64,000 nt of DNA from a virus, in the IMG/VR virus record IMGVR_UViG_3300032116_000125, positions 1 to 64,000 of that record; one strand, 5' to 3'. The translations under genes and the position numbers were made by a program. The notes below the pieces were generated by a model. It saw only the letters and a list, made by a program, of their open reading frames with translations. It was not told the origin of the DNA and searched no databases. Every line of letters starts with the position of its first letter. The stretch's first letter is position 1. Shown one piece after another: positions 9,755 through 59,943 of this stretch.

Positions 9755-10007
9755 GGAGTTACTCTCGCGTACGCCCGTGAACTGGGGTTGCGGTATTGCA
9801 ACTTTGCGCGAAACCCTAAACGACGAAGACAGGAACACCCTTGATTTGTCGCTTGACCGTATCAAGGCAGACACCGGTCAGGGTCGTTCTAAGGTGTACT
9901 CTTCATCATGGCTTGAAAAAGTCCTTAAAAACCACGGACACTCAATCAGCAGAAGCACGATTGAACGACACATAAGAGGGAAGTGCAGTTGTGGCAAGTC
10001 TCAGTGA
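9738..10007 (+). CDS. Small helix-turn-helix-like protein
   Basis: 89 aa with a TTG start behind AAGGAG (9724-9729). The C-terminal half (WLEKVLKNHGHSISRSTIERHIRG) fits a helix-turn-helix, followed by a CSCG tail. It overlaps the next gene by 17 bases. DNA-binding small proteins close to a terminase can be small terminase subunits; that is possible here but unproven. It could equally be a regulator paired with the downstream phosphoesterase. Confidence 0.6.
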   Translation: MSELSKELLSRTPVNWGCGIATLRETLNDEDRNTLDLSLDRIKADTGQGRSKVYSSSWLEKVLKNHGHSISRSTIERHIRGKCSCGKSQ

Positions 10008-11130
10008 CGATCTCAACACCCCGCCGTCAAAGGTAACCCTCGGCAAGATTGCCGACCTCCTTCAGCGCAATAACATTGACGTTGACGAGGTTGGTTCAAT
10101 CAAGCGGGTGTCTCTGTACCAGAGCATGATCAAGAACGACGTTGGTCAGGCCGAGGTGCACGACCTCATGGGCATCCAGTTCAACCCCAAGTGGGCAGAC
10201 GGACCCGAGTGGCCGGTGGTCCAACCCGGCCCCGCAATCAAGGTACCCATTCGTAAAGCCACCGCCAAGGACACCGAGGGCTATAAGACGGCGGTAATCC
10301 TTCCCGATATGCAGATCGGCTATTATCGGGGGCCCAACGGACTGGAGCCCACTCATGACGAAGAAGCGCTTGCCATTGCTCTGGCAATTACCCGAAAACT
10401 CAACCCCGATAGAGTCGTCATGGTCGGAGATAATCTGGATTTCCCCGAGTTTGGAAAGTACCGGTTATCTAGTGCCTACGCTCTCACAACCCAAGCCTCC
10501 ATTGACCGAGCCACAACGCTCTGCGCGGAAATCCGGGCGGCGGCGCCGAACGCAGAAATAGATTGGATTTCTGGTAACCATGAAGAACGCCTCAGTAATT
10601 TCCTTATTGACAACGCAAAAGCCTCGTTCGGCATTCGGAAAGGTAACACTCCAGATTCTTGGCCTGTTCTTAGCGTTCCTTATCTATGTCGTTTTGATGA
10701 TTACGGGATTAACTATGTGGCTGGTTATCCGGCTGGACAAGTCTGGATTAATCAAAGGCTTAAAGTCATTCATGGCAACAAAGTCCGGTCTAATGGTTCA
10801 ACCGCTCACGCCTACCTCAACGACAGCAAGGTCAGCGTCGTCTACGGGCACATTCACCGTAGGGAATGGTGCGAAAAGACCCGTCAGGATTGGGACGGTG
10901 CAAAGACCGTCATGGCGGCGTCACCGGGCACGTTAGCCCGCTGTGATGGGGCTGTGCCCAGCACCAAGGGCGGAATTGACTTGGACGGGCGCCCTTTGAC
11001 CATTGTTGAGGACTGGCAACAGGGCCTCGCGGTGGTGACGTATGAGGAAGGCGAAGGGCAGTTCTGGTATGAGCAGGTTCCGATTCACAATACGAGTGCC
11101 TTTTTCCGTGGTAAGGTTTACCAGCCGTAA
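9991..11130 (+). CDS. Calcineurin-like metallophosphoesterase
   Basis: 379 aa, GTG start. Residues about 95-330 contain the five metal-binding blocks of the superfamily: LPDMQIGYY (about 104; Gln in place of the usual His of DxH), VGDNLD (about 143), GNHEE (about 194), VIHGN (about 258) and GHIHR (about 285). The N-terminal 90 residues look like a helical adaptor. Targets may be nucleic acids, cyclic nucleotides or phosphoproteins. Phosphoesterases near terminase genes occur in many actinophages, and their role there is unclear. The DxQ variant is worth noting. Confidence 0.85.
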   Translation: MASLSDDLNTPPSKVTLGKIADLLQRNNIDVDEVGSIKRVSLYQSMIKNDVGQAEVHDLMGIQFNPKWADGPEWPVVQPGPAIKVPIRKATAKDTEGYKTAVILPDMQIGYYRGPNGLEPTHDEEALAIALAITRKLNPDRVVMVGDNLDFPEFGKYRLSSAYALTTQASIDRATTLCAEIRAAAPNAEIDWISGNHEERLSNFLIDNAKASFGIRKGNTPDSWPVLSVPYLCRFDDYGINYVAGYPAGQVWINQRLKVIHGNKVRSNGSTAHAYLNDSKVSVVYGHIHRREWCEKTRQDWDGAKTVMAASPGTLARCDGAVPSTKGGIDLDGRPLTIVEDWQQGLAVVTYEEGEGQFWYEQVPIHNTSAFFRGKVYQP

Positions 11131-34471: not shown

Positions 34472-34606
34472 TCACTTCTTCTTCTTGGGAGCGGCCTTCT
34501 TGGCCGCGGCCTTCTTGGCCGCGGCCTTCTTCTTAGCCGGTCCCTTGCCGTAGCCGGGGTCCTTCTTATTGCTGATTCCACATCCGCATTCCTTGCACAT
34601 TGTCAT
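34472..34606 (-). CDS. 44-aa protein: Cys cluster plus Lys/Ala tail
   Basis: ATG at 34606 behind a strong AAAGGGGG site, ending at TGA 34472-34474. The N-terminus has a CKECGCG cluster (a possible metal site), followed by a histone-H1-like tail of repeated KKAAA units ending PKKKK. It is the last gene of the minus-strand basic island. The repeat and charge imply nucleic-acid binding or condensation (inference). Confidence 0.65.
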   Translation of the reverse strand: MTMCKECGCGISNKKDPGYGKGPAKKKAAAKKAAAKKAAPKKKK

Positions 34607-34848
34607 TCCCCCTTTCGGTGCTTCGCAGTTTTCTTGGCGATGCTTTTTGGTTGCTTGACAAATTGCTTGCCCTCGGCGTTGCCCTTGGCCTTGGCACGAT
34701 TCGTAGACGCCTTTTCAGAAGGGGTCAACTCATCCCACGCCTTGTCCGGTAGGTAACGCTTCTTGCCCTTGGACGGCTTTCCATCAGAGGTGCGCCACTT
34801 CTGGTCCGTCCATTCATCAAGGGACTTCTGCGACTCTTTCTTAGCCAT
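34603..34848 (-). CDS. Small basic protein (DUF5872-like)
   Basis: 81 aa. The layout KKESQKSLDEWTDQKWRTSDGKPS ... RYLPDKAWDELTPSEKASTNRAKAKG ... GKQFVKQPKSIAKKT is, from memory, that of DUF5872, found in many aquatic myoviruses. Function unknown; 'SxKSLxxWtxQkWrTsdGKPS' is its fixed motif. It overlaps its neighbours by a few bases on both sides. Confidence 0.8.
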   Translation of the reverse strand: MAKKESQKSLDEWTDQKWRTSDGKPSKGKKRYLPDKAWDELTPSEKASTNRAKAKGNAEGKQFVKQPKSIAKKTAKHRKGE

Positions 34849-35042
34849 CAGTCCTTGTAACCCCCGCCCTTCTTCTTGTACTCAGACGCAAGAAGTTGGG
34901 CTTTACGGGCAGACCACTCGCCGGGATCGCCACCCTTTGAACCGGCCTTGATCTTCTTAAACAGTTCCTCACGCATACCCGGCTTGGTGTAATTACCGGC
35001 TTCGTTGACCTTAGATTCGGTCTTCTTTTTCTTAGCGGCCAT
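34848..35042 (-). CDS. Small basic conserved phage protein
   Basis: 64 aa. Starts with AAKKKKTESKV, then NYTKPGMREELFKKIKAGSKGGDPGEWSARKAQLLASEYKKKGGGY. I recall the NYTKPxxRxxLFxxIKAGSKGGxPGxWSARKAQ motif from cyanophage and other aquatic phage proteins that travel with DUF5872. No known function. Its stop overlaps the next start downstream on the minus strand. Confidence 0.8.
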   Translation of the reverse strand: MAAKKKKTESKVNEAGNYTKPGMREELFKKIKAGSKGGDPGEWSARKAQLLASEYKKKGGGYKD

Positions 35043-35044
35043 GG

Positions 35045-35308
35045 TTACTTTTTTCCTCTATTCCGTGCACGATTCTTAGATGGTTCCTCTGCCACGATTC
35101 CACCATCTTTGGTATGGGACATATCCTTACCACCCTTGCCCATAACCCCACGCTTACGGCGCTCTTCAGCAAGTTCACGACGCTTCTCCTTCTCTTCGGG
35201 CTTAGCGTTGTACTCCTTGTTGTAGGCGTCCTTCTTCTTACGGGCCTCCGGGTTATCCCGGTAATACTGCGCGGTTTCTTTGGGACTACTGGTCTTGCGA
35301 GGAGCCAT
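35045..35308 (-). CDS. Small basic protein with GKDMSHTKDGG / RARNRGKK motif
   Basis: 87 aa from the ATG at 35308, which overlaps the upstream stop as TAATG; a GTG two codons earlier is less likely. Very rich in Lys, Arg and Glu, with NPEARKKKDAYNKEYNAKPEEKEKRRELAEERRKR followed by GKGGKDMSHTKDGG and SKNRARNRGKK. The latter motif recurs in hypothetical proteins of large aquatic phages (from memory). A nucleic-acid role is likely from charge. Confidence 0.75.
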   Translation of the reverse strand: MAPRKTSSPKETAQYYRDNPEARKKKDAYNKEYNAKPEEKEKRRELAEERRKRGVMGKGGKDMSHTKDGGIVAEEPSKNRARNRGKK

Positions 35309-35601
35309 TACCACTTCACCTTGTCAGCCCAGTAAGCGGCTGACATCTTGCCTTTGGCAATGTTCTTGGCATGGCGGGACTTAAAGGAAGCACGCTTGTC
35401 CTTCATGCGCTCGGACTCCCCCGCCTTGGGCTTACCAGCGGTCTCAGCACCCTGCTCGCCAAAGCGAATCGTCTTGACCTGATCGCCCACCTTGGCGACA
35501 ACAATGTGCGACTTGGTCGGGTGGTCCGGCGTTGCCTTCGGCTTGTTGTAACCCGAGACACCGGCTCGCGCCAATCGGGGGTCTTTCTTACTCTCAGCCA
35601 T
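35308..35601 (-). CDS. Small basic protein (DUF6321-like)
   Basis: 97 aa. The string DPRLARAGVSGYNKPKATPDHPTKSHIVVAKVGDQVKTIRFGEQGAETAG, then RASFKSRHAKNIAKGKMSAAYWADKVKW, resembles the DUF6321 family known mainly from marine phages (assignment from memory). No function is established. Together with the next genes it forms a translationally coupled set. Confidence 0.82.
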   Translation of the reverse strand: MAESKKDPRLARAGVSGYNKPKATPDHPTKSHIVVAKVGDQVKTIRFGEQGAETAGKPKAGESERMKDKRASFKSRHAKNIAKGKMSAAYWADKVKW

Positions 35602-35608
35602 GATTACC

Positions 35609-36052
35609 TCACTTCGTTGATGCGCGGAGTTGCCACGACCACTTCATGTGCATGTCAATCCGCTCTGAAATAAAATTAAGAATACCCTGCTGATTTTCTT
35701 TCTCAGCATCCTTAAATGTAACATACAACTGCTTGATAAGTGCCTCATTGGCCGTCAGCAGTGCCCCGGCCATAGCCTTGGGGGTGGGGGAGACATCTTT
35801 AAAAGCGATGGTACGCATCTCAATAAACTTTTGTAGATTGAAGGGGGCGTACTCATCCAATTTGCGGAGGTTTTCAGCAATCGGGTCAATAGAGCCGTAG
35901 GCGTCCTCGTAGATGTCTGCAAAGAGGCCGTGGTACTGGCTGAAGTCCTGACCCTCTACGTTCCAGTGAAACCCATGGGCCATGAAGTAGAAGGTGACAA
36001 CGTCTGAGAGAAGGGCTTTGAGGGACTTCGTAAGTCCGGTGCTGGATGCCAT
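35609..36052 (-). CDS. Dps-like ferritin protein
   Basis: 147 aa from the ATG at 36052, behind AAGGAGACCAC. The four-helix ferritin-like pattern is visible: LLSDVVTFYFMAHGFHWNVEGQDFSQYHGLFADIYEDAYGSIDPIAENLRKLDE (about 12-66, containing the Dps ferroxidase set HxxHWN...H...D...E), then ANEALIKQLYVTFKDAEKE and ILNFISERIDMHMKWSWQL. Dps dodecamers store iron and shield DNA. Phage-borne Dps-like proteins are known; the role may be to protect phage DNA or handle iron in the infected cell. Confidence 0.85.
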   Translation of the reverse strand: MASSTGLTKSLKALLSDVVTFYFMAHGFHWNVEGQDFSQYHGLFADIYEDAYGSIDPIAENLRKLDEYAPFNLQKFIEMRTIAFKDVSPTPKAMAGALLTANEALIKQLYVTFKDAEKENQQGILNFISERIDMHMKWSWQLRASTK

Positions 36053-49749: not shown

Positions 49750-49778
49750 TATCTATGGGGTACACAACCCCTTAGATA
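49750..49778. terminator. Hairpin upstream of SpoVS-like gene
   Basis: TATCTATGGGGT (49750-49761), loop ACACA, ACCCCTTAGATA (49767-49778), with one mismatch in the 12-bp stem. It lies directly after the nuclease stop and before the SpoVS-like gene's ribosome site (GGAGTA). It may separate the replication operon from the next group; no U-tract. Confidence 0.55.
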
Positions 49779-49790
49779 CTGGAGTACAGA

Positions 49791-50081
49791 ATGTCGCAAG
49801 AATTGAACGCCTCCGTTGATGACATCATCAAGGTGTCCGGAAGTAGTAACCCGCAGAGCGTGGGTTCCATCATGGCCCGAGCCGTTATCGCCGGGCAGGC
49901 ACCCCGCATGCGTGCTATCGGTGCATCAGCCGTAAACCAAGCCGCCAAAGCCTGCGCTATTGCCCGTGGCTTTGTCGCCCCCCGGGGTATTGACCTCACC
50001 TTTGTGATAGGCTTTGATGATATTGAAGGTGAAAAAGGGACTACAATAAGTGCTATGTCCTTTAAACCCGTTGTGAGGTAA
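49791..50081 (+). CDS. SpoVS-like (stage V sporulation protein S) protein
   Basis: 96 aa. The whole length fits the SpoVS family: IIKVSGSSNPQSVGSIMARAV, then MRAIGASAVNQAAKACAIARGFVAPRGIDLTFVIGFDDIE and a final strand TTISAMSFKP. The central A-IGA-x-AVNQA-x-KA-x-AIARG motif is diagnostic. SpoVS is an Alba-like regulator of sporulation in Bacillus and of unclear role elsewhere. Its presence in a phage may modulate host nucleoid or gene expression. It opens a run of small genes with no known function. Confidence 0.88.
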   Translation: MSQELNASVDDIIKVSGSSNPQSVGSIMARAVIAGQAPRMRAIGASAVNQAAKACAIARGFVAPRGIDLTFVIGFDDIEGEKGTTISAMSFKPVVR

Positions 50082-50083
50082 TT

Positions 50084-51220
50084 ATGCCCCGTAAGAAGCC
50101 CGGTGAAGCGCCTAAGAAGCGTGGTCGTCCTCGCAAAGATCAGGCTCCTACTCGTGGGCGCCCTCGCAAAGCGGATGACACCACGATTGTTGGTACCCCG
50201 ATAACAACTTCTTCGGCCCCGGCCACTGGGTCTCGTGCGTATCAGGTTGCCATGAGCAAGATCGGCCGTGCTGAGAGTTTTTGGGGCGTTGGTACGGGGC
50301 GCCCTGACCGCACTATGTGGGCAGACGCTACTGGACCCGCTGAGACGGACCAAGAGTTCCGTGAGCGCCTTGCGGGTGGGCGTTCAAACCCTGAGCCCAC
50401 GACTGTGACCACAGAGAGGGCGCTTGGCGAAGTGGGCAAGCGTGGTGAAGAGCGTATTGACCCTGTCCGAGATCGCCCCCTGCCTTCGCTGGTCGGCCCC
50501 GGTGTCCCCTCACTGCGAGGCACTCACCGAGCGGTGCCCCTCGGTGATCGTGATGTAAGCATCTCAACCGATACCTCAGTTGATGACAGTGGCAGGGTTG
50601 CTCCTCCTACCCTTGTTACTTTTCCCGGCCCCGTCAGCGTTTCAGGCGTTATCCCTGCTCACATGGGTGGTAGCCAATTCCGTCCACTGGCTAGCCAAGC
50701 AACTGGCCCACGCCAAACACAGGGGCCCCGACTCTTCCGTAGTAGCCGAGTACAGCCTGATCAGGCCCGTGAGGAAGACGCTGATGTGTACGAGCGCTTG
50801 GTGCACCTCCACGAATCCATTAGGGGCATGATGGAGGACTCCGGTGCCCCGGCGTACAGGGCACCCTCTGGCCCATCGGGGCGTGCGGTTACCCCAGACA
50901 TGAAACAGCGTGCAGAATCTCACGCCTCCGATATCCGTGCCCGTACGGGGGACGACACGATGAAGACTTGGATTGACGAAGACATCAAGAAGAAGTGGGA
51001 AGAAGACAACGCTAAGCCTGAGGTTACAACTAGCGCCTCACCAACGGTGACCCCGGTTGGCGGTGATCGTATTACTTCCGAAAACGAAAAAACTAACATG
51101 AAGACCGCTCCCGATGCAGAGGCACAGGCCCGTGGAGCAGAGCGCCGAGCCGCCCGGCAAGCCGCCGAAGCCGACATGGCGGCGATGGACAGAGAAAACA
51201 GGAACAAAAAGAAGAAGTAA
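50084..51220 (+). CDS. Disordered AT-hook-like basic protein
   Basis: 378 aa. Two AT-hook-like motifs at the N-terminus (KKRGRPRKD and TRGRPRK, about residues 11-29). The rest is mostly disordered, Pro/Arg/Gly/Thr-rich, with short helices (DVYERLVHLHESIRGMMED; DDTMKTWIDEDIKKKWEE) and a Lys-rich C-terminus. Likely DNA-binding through AT-hooks (established for the motif); the remainder is not recognised. GTG-free start ATG 50084, two bases after SpoVS-like gene. Confidence 0.7.
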   Translation: MPRKKPGEAPKKRGRPRKDQAPTRGRPRKADDTTIVGTPITTSSAPATGSRAYQVAMSKIGRAESFWGVGTGRPDRTMWADATGPAETDQEFRERLAGGRSNPEPTTVTTERALGEVGKRGEERIDPVRDRPLPSLVGPGVPSLRGTHRAVPLGDRDVSISTDTSVDDSGRVAPPTLVTFPGPVSVSGVIPAHMGGSQFRPLASQATGPRQTQGPRLFRSSRVQPDQAREEDADVYERLVHLHESIRGMMEDSGAPAYRAPSGPSGRAVTPDMKQRAESHASDIRARTGDDTMKTWIDEDIKKKWEEDNAKPEVTTSASPTVTPVGGDRITSENEKTNMKTAPDAEAQARGAERRAARQAAEADMAAMDRENRNKKKK

Positions 51221-51222
51221 AG

Positions 51223-51381
51223 ATGTACGGACCGCTAGACCCCCTGTCATGGGACGAGATGCTTGACGATCTCGGTTACTCTGATGACGACAACGATGAC
51301 GATTACTACGGCAGTAAAAAGGGTAGTAAGGGTAAGAAGAAAACCAAATTTCGAGATTACGAATGGGACGAGTACGACTGA
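51223..51381 (+). CDS. Small acidic/basic protein (MYGPLD...)
   Basis: 52 aa, 2 bases after the AT-hook gene. Begins MYGPLDPLSWDEMLDDLGYSDDDN, an acidic stretch, then a basic Lys/Gly segment (GSKKGSKGKKKTKFRDYEW). Start similar to that of 7990-8433 (MYGTEN...), perhaps by chance. TGATG overlap with the next gene. Unknown function. Confidence 0.55.
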   Translation: MYGPLDPLSWDEMLDDLGYSDDDNDDDYYGSKKGSKGKKKTKFRDYEWDEYD

Positions 51382-51521
51382 TGGCGAAATACGCATACCG
51401 ACCTGACCCCCGAAATGAGTTCTTGAAGCGTGGCGTCCGTAAGCCCCGCCCCATCGCACCGCTTGGTGGGGGCTCTCAGGGAGGAATGCTCTCCGGTACT
51501 GGTACCGGCATGGATCGGTAA
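51381..51521 (+). CDS. Small Arg/Gly-rich protein
   Basis: 46 aa from ATG 51381 (TGATG). AKYAYRPDPRNEFLKRGVRKPRPIAPLGGGSQGG; ends at a TAATG overlap. Too short to show domains; composition suggests a flexible nucleic-acid or virion-associated peptide. The chain of TGATG/TAATG overlaps at both ends supports its reality. Confidence 0.55.
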   Translation: MAKYAYRPDPRNEFLKRGVRKPRPIAPLGGGSQGGMLSGTGTGMDR

Positions 51522-52012
51522 TGACTAACGCATTCACCACCGGCCCTAGTCCTGACGGTAACCGTAACTCAGGAAGCACTCTTCCTTTACTTGGTCCTAC
51601 CCCGGTATTCCGCAACGCCAAGGATCAGCGGCTCTCCGCCTTCGGCTCCACACCGGACACCCAGTACCCCGATGGTTACCTTGGGACAATGTCCAGTAAC
51701 CGCCGTCAGGATAAGTTGACGAACGCTGTCGCCCGGGCTAACCAAAGGTCTTATTCTAGAGGTGTTCATAAGGGCGAGCGGATTAATGCAGGCGATTACA
51801 TTTGGCCTAAAGAATTCAACCTCTTAACCGGACTGGTATTGGAATCCAAGGGTCAAAAGTTCGCCCCAACAGGCGCTGAACCTGCCATGTTGACCAACGA
51901 TGGAAAGGTTGGACCCCGTGGTATTCCTCGGGGATTGGAGCGCCCTAACCCTGAAGTTATAGATATGCAACGCCGAAGCATGCTAAAATCCTTAGCACCA
52001 GCATGGCGTTAA
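51521..52012 (+). CDS. Hypothetical basic protein of the small-gene array
   Basis: 163 aa, TAATG start. Disordered N-terminus (TTGPSPDGNRNSGSTLPLLGPTP), then MSSNRRQDKLTNAVARANQRSYSRGVHKGERINAGDYIWPKEF and a Pro/Gly-rich C-terminus. No family recognised. Confidence 0.6.
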   Translation: MTNAFTTGPSPDGNRNSGSTLPLLGPTPVFRNAKDQRLSAFGSTPDTQYPDGYLGTMSSNRRQDKLTNAVARANQRSYSRGVHKGERINAGDYIWPKEFNLLTGLVLESKGQKFAPTGAEPAMLTNDGKVGPRGIPRGLERPNPEVIDMQRRSMLKSLAPAWR

Positions 52013-52026
52013 TATAAGGAGAAATC

Positions 52027-52323
52027 ATGGCAAAGATTATGCCCGCTATCCATTCTCGTGGATCTCATGGCGGTTCCGGTCAGTACGAGACCGGTGCTAA
52101 CCCGGCCCCGACCCGCTCCCGAGCGACTCGTGACGCCGACCAGTACCGTCGCATGCGTGAGGTCCCGAACGCCGAGAGGCACCGTGATGAGTTGAACGAG
52201 GCCGGAGTTACCGGCGATAAGACCATGAAGCGGATGCAGAAGTGCGGTTCGTGTGGCACGATCAACGATGCCAGCAGTGAGTCGTGCAAGGCTTGTGCGA
52301 GCGACCCCCGGGCCGGTTACTGA
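52027..52323 (+). CDS. Zinc-ribbon-tailed small protein
   Basis: 98 aa behind AAGGAG. Disordered N-terminus with RSRATRDADQYRRMREVPNAERHRDELNEAGVTGDK, then a zinc ribbon: MQKCGSCGTINDASSESCKACAS (CxxCG and CxxC). The ribbon resembles the generic CGSCG...CKAC nucleic-acid-binding type. Unknown role. Confidence 0.62.
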   Translation: MAKIMPAIHSRGSHGGSGQYETGANPAPTRSRATRDADQYRRMREVPNAERHRDELNEAGVTGDKTMKRMQKCGSCGTINDASSESCKACASDPRAGY

Positions 52324-52332
52324 GAACTAATC

Positions 52333-52500
52333 ATGCCGTGGTCTCCGAAAGACGCACCGAAGAAGACCAAGAAGGCTGACACTCCCAAAGAGAAAGAGGA
52401 GTGGGCCAAGGTAGCCAACTCAGTCTTGAAGAAGACGGGGAGCGACGCCACCGCGGTGCGTATCGCTAACTCTACGATTGCCAAGAGAGGTAAGAAGTAA
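52333..52500 (+). CDS. Small conserved-type protein (MPW...KKADT-type)
   Basis: 55 aa from ATG 52333. MPWSPKDAPKKTKKADTPKEKEEWAKVANSVLKKTGSDATAVRIANSTIAKR: the MPW-x-x-x-DAxxxTKKA-x-TPkxxxxWaxVANxvLxxTG-x-xxAxRiAN pattern recurs, from memory, in very small phage and bacterial proteins. No established function known to me; distantly reminiscent of ChaB. TAATG overlap. Confidence 0.72.
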   Translation: MPWSPKDAPKKTKKADTPKEKEEWAKVANSVLKKTGSDATAVRIANSTIAKRGKK

Positions 52501-52859
52501 TGGAAGTAATTAAAGACCCCAAACCCCTCGCTGGTGGCGGTGGCGCCGGTCAGCCCCCGAAGCGCCCCCGCACGGTTAATGACGCAGACCTCCCCAATGA
52601 CCCCATGGACTATGTCACCCGCATCGGGCGAAACGACCACTTTGCGGCTGGAATGGACCACGGCCGTGGTGGTGGCCCCGGCCCTTATTACGACTTTGAC
52701 TACGGCGCCCCTCAGAAAGGCACCAAGGCTTTGCAGGCCCAGTTCGGTCAGGCTTTTGACCCTAAGCGTGCTTTCAAGCCGATGCCACAAGTTCCAGATT
52801 ACTCGGGTCACGACTATAAGGAAGGGCCTCGTAAGCCCCCTACTAAGAAGAAGGTCTGA
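52500..52859 (+). CDS. Glycine/proline-rich hypothetical protein
   Basis: 119 aa, TAATG start. GGGGAGQPPKRPRTVNDADLPNDPMDYVTRIGRNDHFAAGMDHGRGGGPGPYYDFDYG, then KALQAQFGQAFDPKRAFKPM and a basic end. Disordered. Could be a flexible virion or host-takeover protein; unknown. Confidence 0.55.
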   Translation: MEVIKDPKPLAGGGGAGQPPKRPRTVNDADLPNDPMDYVTRIGRNDHFAAGMDHGRGGGPGPYYDFDYGAPQKGTKALQAQFGQAFDPKRAFKPMPQVPDYSGHDYKEGPRKPPTKKKV

Positions 52860-52860
52860 C

Positions 52861-53166
52861 ATGGACAGTCAAGCAAAACACCCCGGACGCAAAACAGGAC
52901 GAGACGACCACACCGGTCGCATCGCTGGATACCAGTCATACTCCACTGGCGACGCTGGCTCAGCGTACGACAGCACCTTTGATGTTATGAATCCTCCGAA
53001 TGCCCCTGAACGTGGTCCCGCTGGCCCCCTCGGCCGTGTGGTCAACAAGGGCTTGAACGCTCTCGGCGTGCCCGAATCGGAAGGCCGTGTTGGTAAGGTT
53101 TCTCGTGCAGACAAGAAAACTTACAAGCAGAATCTAAAGACGTACAAGAAAAATCAAGGGAAGTAA
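52861..53166 (+). CDS. Small array protein with duplicated N-terminal motif (copy 1)
   Basis: 101 aa from ATG 52861, one base after the previous stop. N-terminus DSQAKHPGRKTGRDDHTGR shares DSQA-x-HPxRKTxRxxHTGR with the next gene, evidence of a local duplication. Followed by Gly/Ala/Pro-rich segment (NAPERGPAGPLGRVVNKGLNALGVPESEGRVGK) and a Lys-rich C-terminus (RADKKTYKQNLKTYKKN). No known family. Confidence 0.65.
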   Translation: MDSQAKHPGRKTGRDDHTGRIAGYQSYSTGDAGSAYDSTFDVMNPPNAPERGPAGPLGRVVNKGLNALGVPESEGRVGKVSRADKKTYKQNLKTYKKNQGK

Positions 53167-53171
53167 TCACC

Positions 53172-53447
53172 ATGGACAGCCAAGCAAGACATCCCGAACG
53201 TAAGACAGATCGTGCATCCCACACCGGGCGGGTAACTAAACTCACTGGCAAGGTGGTTGGCCATACCCCGGGCCACGTTTGGATGAGCGCTGAGTCTACT
53301 GGCGGTGGGCAGACTGACAGCCACATGATTCCCCACTCGGAAGGTGGGCGTTTCCCAGTTGGTCAGACTGTGCGTGCTACTAACACGAAAAATGTTAATG
53401 GCACCGATAACTGGGCCCTTCAGTTGGGCGAAGGTTACGACGAGTAA
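53172..53447 (+). CDS. Small array protein with duplicated N-terminal motif (copy 2)
   Basis: 91 aa. DSQARHPERKTDRASHTGR repeats the N-terminal motif of copy 1; the C-terminal part differs: TGKVVGHTPGHVWMSAES, then HSEGGRFPVGQTVRATNTKNVNGTDNWALQLG, a compact beta-type domain. The shared tag could be a targeting or packaging signal (speculative). Confidence 0.65.
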   Translation: MDSQARHPERKTDRASHTGRVTKLTGKVVGHTPGHVWMSAESTGGGQTDSHMIPHSEGGRFPVGQTVRATNTKNVNGTDNWALQLGEGYDE

Positions 53448-53450
53448 AAC

Positions 53451-53744
53451 GTGGGCAAACCGTGGCAGACTCACGAGGAGTACCTCACCGATCAGGCCCT
53501 AGAGGCCGCTCTGAGTCTTACCCCGGATGAGATTCGGGAACTGCGCCCCCAGCACCCGCTGGAGTTGCTCCCTCAAAACCGTGGCTTTGTTAAACAGACC
53601 ATCACCGTAATGGATGTACTCACGGTCAACCGCTACGCCGCCACTAACCGCTCGTGGTTGTCTGGTATGCCCGTTCGCCGTACCCAACTGGCAGACGGCG
53701 ACTGGACCGGCACGGGCCGCTACTCAATGGACGCACTCGGATGA
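53451..53744 (+). CDS. Hypothetical protein of small-gene array
   Basis: 97 aa, GTG start. GKPWQTHEEYLTDQALEAALSLTPDEIRELRPQHPLELLPQNRGFVKQ, a helical half, then VTVNRYAATNRSWLSGMPVRRTQLADGDWTGTG. It overlaps the next gene (ATGAGC at 53741). No family recognised. Confidence 0.6.
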   Translation: MGKPWQTHEEYLTDQALEAALSLTPDEIRELRPQHPLELLPQNRGFVKQTITVMDVLTVNRYAATNRSWLSGMPVRRTQLADGDWTGTGRYSMDALG

Positions 53745-54505
53745 GCAAAGAGTTTGAACGCCAACTAAAACAGGCCATGAAGAGTATGGGCAGTGGGTCT
53801 ATTCCGACCACGGACTACTCCATGGGGGAGACCTTCTCAACGTCTGAAATAAAGTACCCAAAGGCTCGTGAGTATCCCGGATTCACCCCGCCAGATTCTG
53901 GCATCACTCGTGACTTCTCAGGGCGTAAGTACGAGCCTTTTGCGATGACTGCTTCTAAGTCATGGTCAGACATTCGCCTCCAACGCACCCGTATGGGTGG
54001 CGATGCGGAAGATGCGGAAGATGGGGGAGATGGGGAAGACGAGAACCAAAATCCTGCCCCTGCCCCCTCCTCGCCCCTCCCGACAAGTGGGAGTGGGAGC
54101 CAAACCACTGGTGGTGGGCGTGGGCGCAGGAAAAGCACCCGACCCACCTATGTAGCCACTGGTCGTGGGCGCAAAACACCCGCCCAGTCAGGACCACCTA
54201 CTTATGTCGCCACCGGTCGTGGGAAACTGAAGCCGGTAAAAACCCCCAAAGAGGGGTCTCTCTCTCGTGATCCTGACTCCGGTGAAGTCATGTGGGACCC
54301 GAATAAGGACTTCACTGCTGGAGACGCCCGTGTCCTTATTTCTGAGGGTGCCCGTGAGGGCGTCCGGGCCGTTGGGCGAGGACTCCGCAGTGGGGCCTCA
54401 AAGGTTGCGAGAAGCGTAAAAGGACGAGTTGGCAAAGGGGCCGGGCAGTCATCCCAAATGGACGACGTCACCGGATTCACCGACCCGTTTGACCCTTTCG
54501 CATGA
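53741..54505 (+). CDS. Low-complexity basic protein with PTYVATGRG repeats
   Basis: 254 aa from ATG 53741 (ATGA overlap); the frame is open upstream, inside the previous gene, without a good start. Disordered middle: EDAEDGGDGEDEN acidic tract, APAPSSPLP linker, GGGRGRRKSTR and two PTYVATGRG units (about residues 127-160). C-terminal basic helices (VLISEGAREGVRAVGRGLRSGASKVARSVKGRVGKG). Looks like a DNA- or RNA-interacting intrinsically disordered protein; unknown role. Confidence 0.62.
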   Translation: MSKEFERQLKQAMKSMGSGSIPTTDYSMGETFSTSEIKYPKAREYPGFTPPDSGITRDFSGRKYEPFAMTASKSWSDIRLQRTRMGGDAEDAEDGGDGEDENQNPAPAPSSPLPTSGSGSQTTGGGRGRRKSTRPTYVATGRGRKTPAQSGPPTYVATGRGKLKPVKTPKEGSLSRDPDSGEVMWDPNKDFTAGDARVLISEGAREGVRAVGRGLRSGASKVARSVKGRVGKGAGQSSQMDDVTGFTDPFDPFA

Positions 54506-54549
54506 CCACAGCCGTGTTTGTGGTAACCTCTAACTGATAAGGAGTAACT

Positions 54550-54747
54550 ATGGCAACTAACAATTCTCGCTCCATGAACCTTGACCTGCAAAAGGGTCTC
54601 AATGACGGTGTCTTCAAGAGCCTTGCACCCGACCGTGGTGGGGAGGTGGAGATGCAGGCCATCCATGAACGGGCCTCGCTTCTCCAGCCCCAGTACGACA
54701 TGAACGACCTCAAGATGGGTGTCGTTCAGTCTTCGCCTTACAACTGA
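54550..54747 (+). CDS. Small hypothetical protein
   Basis: 65 aa, ATG behind AAGGAG. Helical, no disordered tail: NNSRSMNLDLQKGLNDGVFKSLAPDRGGEVEMQAIHERASLLQPQYDMNDLKMGVVQSS. Unlike its neighbours it is not strongly basic. No family recognised. A 44-base gap before it contains a GTGTTTGTGGTAACC segment but no clear promoter. Confidence 0.55.
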   Translation: MATNNSRSMNLDLQKGLNDGVFKSLAPDRGGEVEMQAIHERASLLQPQYDMNDLKMGVVQSSPYN

Positions 54748-54780: not shown

Positions 54781-55239
54781 ATGCCTCGTCTATTGACCTG
54801 CCAGTCGTGTGGCACCATGTACCGCATGCGGGACTATGACGGCCCCGCCGAGTACGACATGGAGTTGATTGAGATCATCAACCGCCATCTCGGGCAGGCT
54901 GTTAACCCCGACCCGGATGCCCACAAGTCCGTGATCTTCCGTTGTGACGATGCGACATGGGAAAAACTCGGTGACGAGACGGCGGTCAAGAAAGAGTTGA
55001 TGAAGAACGAGATTGAGGTGCGTGAAGTCCGTGACGACCTCAAGGTGGAGGCGCTCAAGTGCTTCCAGCGCCATAACCGCCCCGCCGACATGTGCATTGA
55101 TTACGAGGACGACAGTAAGACCATTGGTCGCAAGATCGGCGTTCCTAAGGCTAACCGCCAGTACCTGTGCCACTACTGCCCCTGCACTTCGTATGTCGTG
55201 CATCAAAACCGTAAGGCTAAGGGGATGTATGACTCGTGA
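54781..55239 (+). CDS. Cys-rich zinc-binding protein
   Basis: 152 aa behind AAGGAG. N-terminal zinc half (RLLTCQSCGTMYRMRDYDG) and a second cysteine cluster near the C-terminus (YLCHYCPCTSYVV), plus single Cys in between (FRCDD, ALKCF, MCIDY). Between them is a helical charged region (AVKKELMKNEIEVREVRDDLKVEALKCFQ). This looks like a composite zinc-binding protein, perhaps for nucleic acid; family not recognised. GTGA overlap with next gene. Confidence 0.65.
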   Translation: MPRLLTCQSCGTMYRMRDYDGPAEYDMELIEIINRHLGQAVNPDPDAHKSVIFRCDDATWEKLGDETAVKKELMKNEIEVREVRDDLKVEALKCFQRHNRPADMCIDYEDDSKTIGRKIGVPKANRQYLCHYCPCTSYVVHQNRKAKGMYDS

Positions 55240-55718
55240 TTGTATTCAACTTTGATGCCATAGCCCTCCCCTCTGACACCCTCGGTACCCGACAGCCGAG
55301 CACCGAGGGTCGTCGCCTGTGGGACACCTTGTTTCAGAAGTACATGGGGCGCACCCTCGTGGTGGTGGATTCCCAGTACAAATTGGAACTCGTTAAAGAG
55401 TGGCTGAAGCGTGAGAACTTCAAGGTTTCTGCTATTCATCAGACTCCGGCTATGGTCCGTGACGGGAACACCCCGGCATCGGAGGCGGTGTGGCACATCG
55501 CTTCGGCGGTCTCCCGCCCCCACTTCTACATTGATGTGGACCCCGAGACCTGTCGCATAGTCAATGGTCAGGGCATCCCGACGCTCCTACTGACCGTCCC
55601 GAAGTACCTGCGCCCCGAGTGGAACCAGCCTCAGGCGAAGCGGTCGTGGGACGTTGTTGTAGACGAGATTGAGGCCCGGGCGATGCAGAAGTCCGAAGCC
55701 ACATGGGGTGATCTATGA
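55236..55718 (+). CDS. HAD-like fold protein (possibly degenerate phosphatase)
   Basis: 160 aa, GTG start overlapping the previous stop. Strand IVFNFDAIALPSDTL resembles HAD motif I (D-x-D/T) but with FDAIA; TLVVVDSQYKLELVKEWLKRENF looks like motif II-type; PHFYIDVDPETCRIV and PTLLLTVPKY follow. The catalytic Asp pair is not intact, so it may be an inactive family member or an unrelated Rossmann protein. Coupled to a 472-aa unknown. Confidence 0.55.
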   Translation: MIVFNFDAIALPSDTLGTRQPSTEGRRLWDTLFQKYMGRTLVVVDSQYKLELVKEWLKRENFKVSAIHQTPAMVRDGNTPASEAVWHIASAVSRPHFYIDVDPETCRIVNGQGIPTLLLTVPKYLRPEWNQPQAKRSWDVVVDEIEARAMQKSEATWGDL

Positions 55719-57133
55719 GGGTCTTCTTCGGCGGGGCTGAGAAAGGCACCCAGCGGCGCATCCTAGAGAGGGCCGGGGTAACCCGCTTTGGGGTAAACCT
55801 GACCCACTTTCCTATCCCTAAGACCAAAGAGTTAGTCCTGTCTGAGGTCGTCACCGGCGAGGTCATCCTGTACACCAGCGAGGGCGACGAGGACAACCAT
55901 CGCTTTGACGAGTTCGTTCGTCAGCACGAGCACAGCATCACCGCCATCATTGGTCGCCCCGAATACGATGGGGCGTGGCTGGGGGAGAAGTACATCCCGG
56001 TGTGGTCCGATGGGGAGGACCTTGAGCGTCTAGCCATCATTTGTCAGCGTCACGGACGAGTTGCTATTTCGGACAAGGCGGTCAACGGCAAGACGATTCC
56101 CCGCATCCGCTCGCTGGCCCAGCGGTGGAACGCTGACCTGTACGGTCTTACCAGTAAGCCTGATGTCATTGAGGCCCTGCCATGGCACACCGTGATCGTT
56201 GGATCGTGGACCAGCGCTCTCCGCTACGGGGAGACGCAAGTGTGGGACGGGCACGGGCTCCGGAGATACCCCGCCCAGCAGAAAGAGTCGTCCCGTAAGA
56301 AGCATCGGGCTGACATCATGCGCCTCGGACTGAACCCCGATCTCGTTCTCGCAGACGACACTACCGAGGTGGGGATGCTCGCTATCCGGTCGTGGCAGGC
56401 GTGGGAATCTCGGGTCTATGACCCCCCGAAGAGCAGTGCCAAGGAGGCCCCAATGACTAACTCTGAAGGCGAAATAATTACTATGACCCCCGCACCCTAT
56501 GGTGGAGAAGTTGGGGTTCCGGGGGTATCAAGTATTGCTATGACCCCCCCTGAGAAGCGGCACGAGAATGAGCGTTTATTGCTACCAGTTATTGGGGTGG
56601 AAAGCATCACCGCCGTGGGTACACGAACTGGGTCTGAGCAGGACGAACAGTACGAAATTGACCCCGAAGAGATACCCGTAATTCGCCATACAAACGCACT
56701 TCTACGTCAGTGTGATAATTGCTATTTGGCTTCTAAATGTCCCGCATACAAAGAACGCTCAGAATGCGGGTTCAATCTGCCGGTGGAAATCCGCACCAAG
56801 GACCAACTTCAGGCCACACTCCGGGCGCTGTTGGAGATGCAAGTGAGCCGAGTCTTGTTCGCACGCTTTGCAGAAGAGATGGAGGGTCAGGGGCTGGATT
56901 CCACTCTTAGTACTGAGATTGACCGTATGTTTAATCTCGTTAACAAGTTTAAAGACATCTCTGATACCCGAGACGTAATCCGCATGGAGGTGGAGGCTCG
57001 CGGATCGGCGGGTGTGCTGTCTCGGCTATTCGGACAGAAAGCGGGGGAGACCGCTCGGGAATTGTCGTCGCCCCTACCCCCTCAGGTCATGGACAACATG
57101 GCCATGGACATCATCAATTACGAAGAGGATTGA
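55715..57133 (+). CDS. Large conserved-looking hypothetical protein with Cys cluster
   Basis: 472 aa, ATGA overlap. N-terminal alpha/beta region (RVFFGGAEKGTQRRILERAGVTRFGVNLTH, later VAISDKAVNGKTIPRIRSLAQRW and TVIVGSWTSALRYGETQVWDG). A disordered stretch follows (about 245-300), then a Cys motif (RQCDNCYLASKCPAYKERSECGF, about 330-352) and a helical C-terminus (LLEMQVSRVLFARFAEEMEGQG). The four-Cys cluster resembles Fe-S or zinc sites. I cannot name a family; size and order suggest an enzyme or DNA-interacting protein. Confidence 0.65.
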   Translation: MRVFFGGAEKGTQRRILERAGVTRFGVNLTHFPIPKTKELVLSEVVTGEVILYTSEGDEDNHRFDEFVRQHEHSITAIIGRPEYDGAWLGEKYIPVWSDGEDLERLAIICQRHGRVAISDKAVNGKTIPRIRSLAQRWNADLYGLTSKPDVIEALPWHTVIVGSWTSALRYGETQVWDGHGLRRYPAQQKESSRKKHRADIMRLGLNPDLVLADDTTEVGMLAIRSWQAWESRVYDPPKSSAKEAPMTNSEGEIITMTPAPYGGEVGVPGVSSIAMTPPEKRHENERLLLPVIGVESITAVGTRTGSEQDEQYEIDPEEIPVIRHTNALLRQCDNCYLASKCPAYKERSECGFNLPVEIRTKDQLQATLRALLEMQVSRVLFARFAEEMEGQGLDSTLSTEIDRMFNLVNKFKDISDTRDVIRMEVEARGSAGVLSRLFGQKAGETARELSSPLPPQVMDNMAMDIINYEED

Positions 57134-57385: not shown

Positions 57386-57790
57386 ATGGACCTAGCGGAG
57401 TGGACCGAGGACGCACTGTGTCGTGGCCTAGCGCCTGACCCTTGGTACCCTCCGCTGGAGTCGCCCACTCCGAACGACTATTACGCCGTCGCCCGGGCTG
57501 TGTGTAACCGTTGCCCAGCATGGCGCTCGTGCTTAGACTATAGTTATCGTAACAAAGATGACGAAAAATACGGCATGTGGGGTGGGCTGACTCCACAAGA
57601 AAGGAATGGGAAAAAGACGGCTCTGCGACCGCATGGCACGATCACCCGCTATCGTCAAGGGTGCGCCTGCGCTAAGTGCTCGGGAGCCAACAGCGCCAAA
57701 CATTCAAATCTTGATCTCTCGGTCTACCCAAGGACTGGTCAGCCCGTCAACATTGACGAACTGAAGTACCAAATCCTTCCCAACAGGTAG
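57386..57790 (+). CDS. whiB: WhiB family transcription factor (copy 1)
   Basis: 134 aa. The four Fe-S cysteines of WhiB are at 12 (ALC), 40, 43 and 49 (CNRCPAWRSC), followed by the GMWGGLTPQER turn (about 63-73) that defines the family. The C-terminal extension holds an additional Cys pair (GCACAKCSG) and Lys-rich DNA-contacting residues. WhiB proteins bind sigma-A-type factors and regulate transcription, and are almost confined to actinobacteria and their phages; phage WhiB (e.g. of phage TM4) can interfere with host WhiB2. Strong host marker. Confidence 0.9.
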   Translation: MDLAEWTEDALCRGLAPDPWYPPLESPTPNDYYAVARAVCNRCPAWRSCLDYSYRNKDDEKYGMWGGLTPQERNGKKTALRPHGTITRYRQGCACAKCSGANSAKHSNLDLSVYPRTGQPVNIDELKYQILPNR

Positions 57791-58459: not shown

Positions 58460-59545
58460 ATGAAGGTAGGCGTAGCATCCGGTGACTGGGTTCACCCTGA
58501 TCGTGTTGAGGACGGCAAAGAGAAATGGGGCGGGTCCGGATGGGCTCGCCTTGCCCAGTATCTGCCTCTCCTGACTGACATCCAGTTCATCACGGGCACT
58601 CTGATCTTTGACCCCAAGCATGGGTCATTTCAAATCCGTGCTGGCGATGAGGCAGTCCATGACATTGACATGGTGTGGATGCAACGACTCATGCACGCCG
58701 GGGCCTCCACCAACATGAAGATCGCCCGTTCAGCGGGGCAAATCATCATCAACGACCTTGACGACTGGTACTGGGGTTTGTCGGCTAGCAACAACGCTTT
58801 TCGCAACACGCACCCCAAACACAGCCCCGACATCAACATCAACCATTACCGTGCGATTCTCGCTCAGTCTGACTTGGTTACTGTAAGCACCCCATACCTT
58901 GCTGACCGCATTAAGTCATGGGTTACCCGTTGCCCGATCACAGTTGTGCCGAACTATGTGGACATCAAAAGATTTCCGAGATACGAGCACACAGAAACGG
59001 ACGTTCCGCTCGTTGGGTGGGCCGGTAGTACCGGACACCGTAGTAACGACCTTGAAACCGTTGCTGGGGTTATCAAACCAATGGTTAATGCTGGGAACAT
59101 CCGCTTCCACCACACGGGCGCACATCCGGCGATGAAGAGCGTTGCGTCGCTCGTCGGACTCCGAGACGATCAGGTCGCCACCCTTCCGCTGTCCGATCAC
59201 GAGACGTACCCTTCCAACCTTAAGTTTGACGTTGGTGTTGTTCCGCTGAACAACATTCCGTTCAACCGAGCCAAGTCTGACATCAAGGGTTTGGAGTACA
59301 GCGCCTGTGGTATTCCGTTTGTGGCACAGAACTTAGATGCGTACATCAACCTCCGCAACTCACTCGGTATCGGTCGTATTGCGAAGCGCCCCACGGATTG
59401 GATTCGCCACTTGAATGCACTACGCTCTCCGAGTGTTCGTCGTGAGGAAGGGGAAGCCTGTTATGAGGCAGTGCAACACCGAGACATCCACCATGGCGTG
59501 CAGACGTATCAGCAAATCTTTGACCATTTCAGGAGACCACAGTGA
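58460..59545 (+). CDS. Glycosyltransferase (GT4-like)
   Basis: 361 aa. Two Rossmann domains are visible: N-terminal GVASGDWVHP ... DIDMVWMQRLMHAG ... IIINDLDDWYWG, and C-terminal VPLVGWAGSTGHRSNDLETVAGVI with TYPSNLKFDVGVVPLNNIPFNRAKSDIKGLEYSACGIPFVAQNLDAY. GWAGSTGHRSND and the E-x-A-x-G-x-P segment resemble GT4/GT1-type nucleotide-sugar enzymes. It would glycosylate a virion or host surface component, possibly in combination with the O-methyltransferase at 48421-48984. Confidence 0.82.
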   Translation: MKVGVASGDWVHPDRVEDGKEKWGGSGWARLAQYLPLLTDIQFITGTLIFDPKHGSFQIRAGDEAVHDIDMVWMQRLMHAGASTNMKIARSAGQIIINDLDDWYWGLSASNNAFRNTHPKHSPDININHYRAILAQSDLVTVSTPYLADRIKSWVTRCPITVVPNYVDIKRFPRYEHTETDVPLVGWAGSTGHRSNDLETVAGVIKPMVNAGNIRFHHTGAHPAMKSVASLVGLRDDQVATLPLSDHETYPSNLKFDVGVVPLNNIPFNRAKSDIKGLEYSACGIPFVAQNLDAYINLRNSLGIGRIAKRPTDWIRHLNALRSPSVRREEGEACYEAVQHRDIHHGVQTYQQIFDHFRRPQ

Positions 59546-59943
59546 GCATTGAGCAAGTTGATCTACCTTCCCTCGCACACCCCGAGAAAGACCCCTCATG
59601 GAGGAAGTCTGCGTTGTGCCTCGGTGTCGGCCCCGGGCCGTTCTTCCGAGAGCGGGGGAGTATGGGTTACTCCGCTGAGCGCATTATGTGCGCCCAATGC
59701 TCAGTGCGAGAGAACTGCTTGGACTTCGCTCTTGAGAATCACATCCAACACGGTTTCTTCGGCGGGTTCTCAAAGGAGGACCGCCAGCGCATCAATGCTG
59801 GCGACATGGGCCGAGAGATCACGATGACTCAGATCGTCAAGGACCTCGCCAAGTTGAAGAAAGACAACCCCATCCGGGAAGCCTCACGCCTGTTCTTCAA
59901 GGATGAAGCCGAGATACACGAGATGCTTTCAGCCGGTAAGTGA
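59542..59943 (+). CDS. whiB: WhiB family transcription factor (copy 2)
   Basis: 133 aa, GTG start overlapping the previous stop. Cysteines at about 26 (SALC), 50, 53 and 59 (CAQCSVRENC) and turn GFFGGFSKEDRQR (about 70-82). The second Gly-Gly turn uses Phe in place of Trp, a divergence from copy 1. The C-terminal region is helical and basic (TMTQIVKDLAKLKKD, FKDEAEIHEML). It is the last gene of the plus-strand operon, directly before a bidirectional terminator. Confidence 0.88.
   Translation: MSIEQVDLPSLAHPEKDPSWRKSALCLGVGPGPFFRERGSMGYSAERIMCAQCSVRENCLDFALENHIQHGFFGGFSKEDRQRINAGDMGREITMTQIVKDLAKLKKDNPIREASRLFFKDEAEIHEMLSAGK

Follow-up and report, generated by a model that had tools for sequence, protein, structure and literature searches.

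Among the closest described counterparts of the locus considered here is the set of internal proteins of phage T4 (IPI, IPII, IPIII and Alt), in which a short N-terminal address is common to several unrelated small proteins, namely a capsid targeting sequence of ~10 amino acids (aa) by which nearly any protein joined to it is taken into the head (PMC7697877). The present locus is an array of twelve small genes (A1 to A12) in a tailed phage known from the IMG/VR record IMGVR_UViG_3300032116_000125, of whose 74,256 bp the first 64,000 were analysed (the window). It lies between a gene for a SpoVS protein, a member of the Alba superfamily (PMC11621453), and one for a Cys-rich zinc protein (Zn152), and is real, conserved, widespread and not characterised before. 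Its organisation into tags and cargo is unusual: fast-changing genes between conserved ones encode unrelated proteins with common N-terminal peptides, or tags. Its relatives in culture are phages of Streptomyces, namely BRock, LuckySocke, Alone3, GiJojo and pSt2308 (Borockvirus, or actinobacteriophage cluster BS), the major capsid proteins of cluster BS being 58-59% identical to that of the window; BRock and GiJojo are myoviruses (PMC7453282, PMC11465772), as is LuckySocke. The genes of the block are as follows, with slots and anchors named after the gene order found among relatives.

49791-50081, + strand: SpoVS-family (Alba-like) protein, 96 aa, first gene of the block (Pfam PF04232, E 2.5e-19)
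50084-51220, + strand: A1, slot 1, 378 aa, basic and disordered, with AT-hook-like motifs
51223-51381, + strand: A2, slot 1, 52 aa, acidic
51381-51521, + strand: A3, 46 aa, basic, with PRPI...GGG.QGG
51521-52012, + strand: A4, conserved anchor, 163 aa, with PDGYLG..RR.DK...RGVHKG...DY.WP
52027-52323, + strand: A5, slot 2, 98 aa, with an N-terminal tag of type V (MAKIMPAIHSRG) and a C-terminal zinc-ribbon-like CxxC..CxxC
52333-52500, + strand: A6, slot 2, a Lys-rich MPW mini-protein of 55 aa, present in 11/67 relatives
52500-52859, + strand: A7, slot 2, 119 aa, ends conserved and middle variable
52861-53166, + strand: A8, slot 2, 101 aa, with a tag of type I on approximately the first 20 residues (52861-52920)
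53172-53447, + strand: A9, slot 2, 91 aa, with the tag of A8 (53172-53231) on a different body
53451-53744, + strand: A10, conserved anchor, 97 aa, with RP...RSW.SG.PV...RYSM
53741-54505, + strand: A11, slot 3, 254 aa, disordered, N-terminus common to relatives L003 and L004 and remainder diverged
54550-54747, + strand: A12, conserved anchor, 65 aa, with MAVN..RSMN.DL..G..DG..K....RGG
54781-55239, + strand: Zn152, Cys-rich and conserved, last gene of the block

A search among viral contigs gave 68 relatives of A4 and at least 83 of SpoVS, of which 80 were kept, with distant relatives (L154, L156, L162, L163 and others) found through A4. Gene calling at these loci and all-against-all comparison yielded 97 in which SpoVS and the zinc protein at the far end were both present; these represent 67 distinct architectures, the window included, and form the basis of all counts out of 67. 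The gene order is SpoVS - slot 1 - A3 - A4 - slot 2 - A10 - slot 3 - A12 - slot 4 - Zn152, with SpoVS, A4, A12 and Zn152 present in 67/67 architectures, A10 in 65/67 and A3 in 52/67, and with a SpoVS-Zn152 span of 3.2 to 10.5 kb enclosing 7 to 20 genes. The leading gene is clearly SpoVS, scoring 69.2 bits against a gathering cut-off of 24 for PF04232 and matching PDB 2eh1/2ek0 (E 7.6e-11); here it is phage-encoded and always has the array behind it. An earlier note on this stretch had treated the twelve genes as one contiguous set whose gene order should be found in other phages rather than be absent from relatives, and a contiguous, SpoVS-led locus does recur across many relatives. A fixed twelve-gene operon, however, is ruled out, as only about five of the genes are conserved and the remainder are lineage-specific. 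BRock and LuckySocke have a similar block, consisting of SpoVS, two small genes, A4, an A10-like gene (BRock gp47, a distant counterpart at 24-27% identity), a small basic gene, A12, lysis genes and a zinc protein, but there it is compact, lacks the tagged cargo set and is mostly annotated as hypothetical proteins. A block of recA, cas4, RuvC, (SpoVS), A4, A12, Zn152 and DpdA-like genes was also seen on three contigs from Streptomyces genomes (L149, L150 and L151; 173-412 kb), which suggests that relatives of these phages, supposedly virulent, are integrated there or were co-assembled.

The slot genes are fast-changing, mostly disordered and lineage-specific. Slot 1 is occupied by small genes in some genomes and by one protein as long as 1,948 aa in others, with acidic proteins of ~50 aa at the position of A2 in many relatives, and the positional counterparts of A11 range from 145 to 641 aa. 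Even in relatives that are 84-91% identical to the window in those parts of the flanks that can be aligned (L003 and L004), A8 and A9 are cleanly missing between A7 and A10, contrary to a fixed twelve-gene unit, and A7 and A11 keep parts of their ends with the remainder different.

Within this turnover, A8 and A9 share the opening MDSQA[K/R]HPxRKTxR..HTGR, a feature that the earlier note missed. Five types of such tags were defined across the relatives: type I (for example MARGENTAHHPNRKVGR, and in the window MDSQAKHPGRKTGR), type II (DHRG..VG.NHRPTPR), type III (RGGAGAGRGDNPH), type IV (FRGKRV) and type V (GRN/SRG). By these patterns, 76/352 non-redundant array proteins have tagged N-termini versus 3/637 flanking genes, and few matches occur in shuffled N-termini or in body segments of array proteins. 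In three near-complete relatives, 11/34 array genes are tagged versus 4 weak matches among the other ~440 genes, and the only matches among 819 ATG starts in the window are A5, A8, A9 and one internal recA start. At least one tag is present in 58/65 relatives, with the highest frequencies in slot 2 (119/253) and slot 4 (23/51). The tags are alike within a genome and differ between lineages, on bodies that are unrelated: pairs of slot proteins with strong N-terminal likeness and unrelated bodies occur 101 times within genomes, compared with 34.9 expected when genome labels are shuffled (maximum 53 in 200 shuffles). Identical tag residues are encoded by different codons at 42% of sites, versus 61% if independent, and at 7/14 shared residues between A8 and A9, while the 30 nucleotides (nt) upstream of tagged genes are only 32% identical. 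These synonymous differences indicate selection on the peptide, and the tags are thus maintained at the peptide level, with common descent accounting for part of their conservation, whereas the bodies are not conserved.

The anchors show the opposite behaviour to the slot genes, with 32 invariant columns in A4 over 39 diverse sequences, BRock among them, and much the same constraint in alignments of A10 and A12. None of the three matched a known family in Pfam or PHROG, a PDB sequence search with their profiles matched no chain, and AlphaFold with alignments gave no confident fold (mean predicted local distance difference test of 62 for A4 and 58 for A10). The anchors may be peptides of extended form that gain order upon binding a partner, in the manner of small assembly or virion proteins.

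All twelve of the open reading frames listed by the earlier note are present and were recovered by a gene caller trained on the long genes of the phage itself, A9 with a shorter start. Ratios of non-synonymous to synonymous substitution (dN/dS) against relatives are 0.07 for SpoVS, 0.16 for A2 and 0.15 for A3, indicating mostly synonymous variation, and the corresponding ratios of differences (pN/pS) are 0.30 for A4, 0.24 for A6, 0.17 for A8, 0.39 for A10 and 0.42 for A12. A7 and A9, at about 0.6, lack such coding support, as does A11, for which full-length search found no relative and none was alignable. The genes are tightly coupled as described, with a median gap of 2 nt and 11/12 gaps of at most 15 nt (13.5 nt and 53% elsewhere in the window), and their products are mostly disordered, with a mean disorder propensity of 0.163 versus 0.092 (standard deviation 0.057) for the 88 other proteins. 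The products, which the earlier note described as largely Arg/Gly/Pro/Lys-rich, are not uniformly basic: the isoelectric point is above 9.5 in only 5/12, and A2 (4.2), A12 (5.0) and A10 (5.6) are acidic. The AT-hook and zinc-ribbon matches fall short of the Pfam cut-offs: the AT-hook profile (PF02178) matched A1 twice, but at 14.9 bits against a gathering cut-off of 17.4 (E 0.023), and A5 has four Cys in CxxC pairs, but its best match, zf-tcix (E 4.6e-5), scores 23.3 bits against a cut-off of 31.2. That the array largely lacks recognised domains was borne out, most of its proteins being unmatched in Pfam and PHROG scans and explained by no database family.

Recognisable domains do occur among the array proteins of relatives. 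Slot 4 of one relative (L099) encodes DUF6496, DUF6321 and Dps/ferritin proteins, and a slot-1 protein of ~1,950 aa in another (L068, 3794-9640; also L025), mostly disordered, contains an apparently intact GreA domain near residues 1531-1678, with matches to PF03449 (E 1.3e-15) and PF01272 (E 7.4e-10) and the acidic tip GDLrENAEh aligned to E. coli GreA (1grj). Judged by their families, the recognisable members, the SpoVS leader included, appear to be directed at nucleic acid or RNA polymerase. A literature search found nothing on DUF6321 or DUF6496, nor on proteomics of these phages. In the window itself, a minus-strand cassette outside the array (34472-36052) combines a Dps/ferritin-like gene (35609-36052) with five genes for small Lys-rich proteins; the array Dps of L099 is 65% identical to this Dps, a small Cys/Lys-rich array protein of the same relative also has a homologue in the cassette, and Dps is present in 24/34 relatives tested.

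The slots of distant relatives also contain virion and lysis genes. Between SpoVS and A4 there is a tail-fibre gene in L154 (phrog_5073, E 4e-58) and a tail collar gene in L163 (PF07484, E 1e-24), tail and virion structural proteins stand directly ahead of A4 in L156, the interval from A4 to A10 holds endolysins in L156 and L162 and a holin in L148 (a fragment), and lysis genes follow A12 in BRock and LuckySocke. The tail-fibre, holin and endolysin genes suggest, from gene content, that the array is probably a late region, and the early host takeover that the earlier note had raised appears less likely than late expression. Also in keeping with late surroundings, a calcineurin-like phosphoesterase gene (9991-11130), located here between terminase and portal, has a homologue between SpoVS and A4 in L172, L180 and L181; a metallo-phosphatase is encoded near the terminase in BRock.

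Potential regulatory elements and neighbouring genes of the block are listed below.

49750-49778, + strand: hairpin within the 41-nt gap before SpoVS
55236-55718, + strand: g160, conserved downstream neighbour
55715-57133, + strand: g472, queuine tRNA-ribosyltransferase or DpdA-like protein, conserved downstream neighbour (phrog_887, E 6e-37)

A hairpin before SpoVS is usual in relatives, with a different sequence and sometimes enclosing the ribosome-binding site, and in BRock and LuckySocke it is strong and terminator-like. This could potentially reflect autoregulation by the Alba-like SpoVS. The mean hairpin z is -2.53 in 64 SpoVS gaps versus -1.55 in all gaps; as hairpins are common in the gaps of these genomes, the enrichment is not taken to mark the SpoVS leader as a special regulatory element. 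No shared late promoter emerged in BRock with the SpoVS leader as bait, there being no recurrence ahead of structural genes, and scans for sigma-70 promoters and terminators gave site numbers not above those of shuffles. Downstream, Zn152 is usually followed by g160 and then the DpdA-like tRNA-guanine transglycosylase, whose gene neighbours the array in most of the relatives as well as in Borockvirus (BRock gp36, GiJojo gene 181) and which suggests 7-deazaguanine DNA modification; upstream are RecA, Cas4-like and Holliday-junction nuclease genes. Two related Cys-containing genes further on (57386-57790 and 59542-59943) belong to one cluster, and the first encodes a WhiB regulator (Pfam, E 4e-14); the host is probably actinobacterial.

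A plausible but unproven explanation for this organisation, and the one tentatively favoured here although we rate its chances at rather less than even, is a late array of nucleic-acid and transcription cargo that is directed to the virion or its assembly by an N-terminal tag. SpoVS, A3, A4, A10, A12 and Zn152 would form a fixed frame around slots that gain and lose disordered, often basic proteins, and the array proteins would be produced late. The tag would bind a single phage component, such as the scaffold, the capsid interior, the portal, A4/A10 or SpoVS, whereby unrelated bodies acting on nucleic acid and transcription would reach the particle or the site of assembly and DNA packaging, their target being the packaged DNA or the DNA and RNA polymerase of the next host. 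The simplest destination would be the prohead or packaging complex, as with the T4 capsid targeting sequence. A DNA-associated or virion-internal role, as the earlier note had envisaged, fits the Dps, DUF6321, DUF6496 and GreA domains of relatives and the late surroundings, with packaging and injection among the steps that we infer. A more specific form of this proposal, in which a virion component that co-evolves with the lineage-specific addresses would recognise them and an interchangeable disordered set directed at DNA and RNA polymerase would be loaded into the head for injection, with slot-1 proteins as long as ~1,950 aa, some of which contain GreA, possibly loaded alongside, seems doubtful.

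The likeness to T4 lies in organisation. The array has shared N-terminal peptides on unrelated bodies, as T4 internal proteins do, but the tag sequences differ from those of T4 and are lineage-specific, and the genes sit in slots between the anchors A4, A10 and A12, behind SpoVS. No homology to the T4 IP or Alt families was found, the tagged A8 and A9 matching no family in Pfam or PHROG scans. Given this, and as the array is known from genes alone, it is not classed as a T4-type system.

A number of observations weigh against the proposed tag-addressed, late virion cargo. The tag patterns were drawn up post hoc, after inspection of the data; by these patterns 7/65 relatives have no tag, slot 3 has few (3/84), and the distant clades, which are the nearest to a held-out set, have few convincing ones (e.g. 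MARGLNTALHPNRQVGRGAF in L159 and RGGARAGRGDFPH in L154). The recognisable bodies (Dps, DUF6321, DUF6496 and GreA) are themselves untagged, which weakens the cargo idea, and the GreA domain is clear in two relatives only. Neither a prohead protease nor a site of cleavage in the tags came to light, no systematic search having been made, and the upstream recombination genes make middle expression possible.

The main rival, which we consider somewhat unlikely, is an intracellular nucleoid and transcription cassette that is never packaged and whose SpoVS/Alba, AT-hook, Dps, DUF and GreA-like proteins would coat or reorganise phage and host DNA and tune host RNA polymerase during infection, with the tag docking proteins on DNA, RNA polymerase or SpoVS. 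An Alba-superfamily protein leading every array, the nucleic-acid- and transcription-related domains among the array cargo of relatives, and the upstream RecA, Cas4-like and Holliday-junction nuclease genes are all in its favour, and most of the evidence is common to it and the virion cargo proposal, from which it differs solely in packaging. The tail-fibre, holin and endolysin genes in the same slots instead point to late expression, although such intracellular action may itself be late. An accessory hotspot is a less probable alternative, in which unrelated small genes accumulate in a late operon and the shared N-termini merely result from duplication, after which bodies free of constraint diverged fast. 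High turnover, small sizes and unrelated bodies are consistent with this, as are the frequent adjacency of tagged genes and their partly shared codons, but neutral decay after duplication would not spare the first ~20 residues alone, and peptide selection within the tags and the repetition of the pattern in many lineages also argue against it. That the N-termini are instead DNA- or RNA-level elements, i.e. recombination sites or translation-initiation signals, is very improbable, since despite the invariable position of the tags at the start codon and gene gain and loss at gene boundaries, this reading is weakened by the low upstream identity and the synonymous codon differences.

If the tags are packaging addresses, actinobacterial phages of a widespread group would have arrived independently at a strategy like that of the T4 internal proteins, and the natural lineage-specific addresses with their interchangeable cargo would offer a direct way into the choice of injected proteins by phages, and short tags for packaging proteins might be drawn from them. 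On a more modest reading too, the strongly conserved A4, A10 and A12 families are now placed in a defined genomic setting, with predictions that can be tested.

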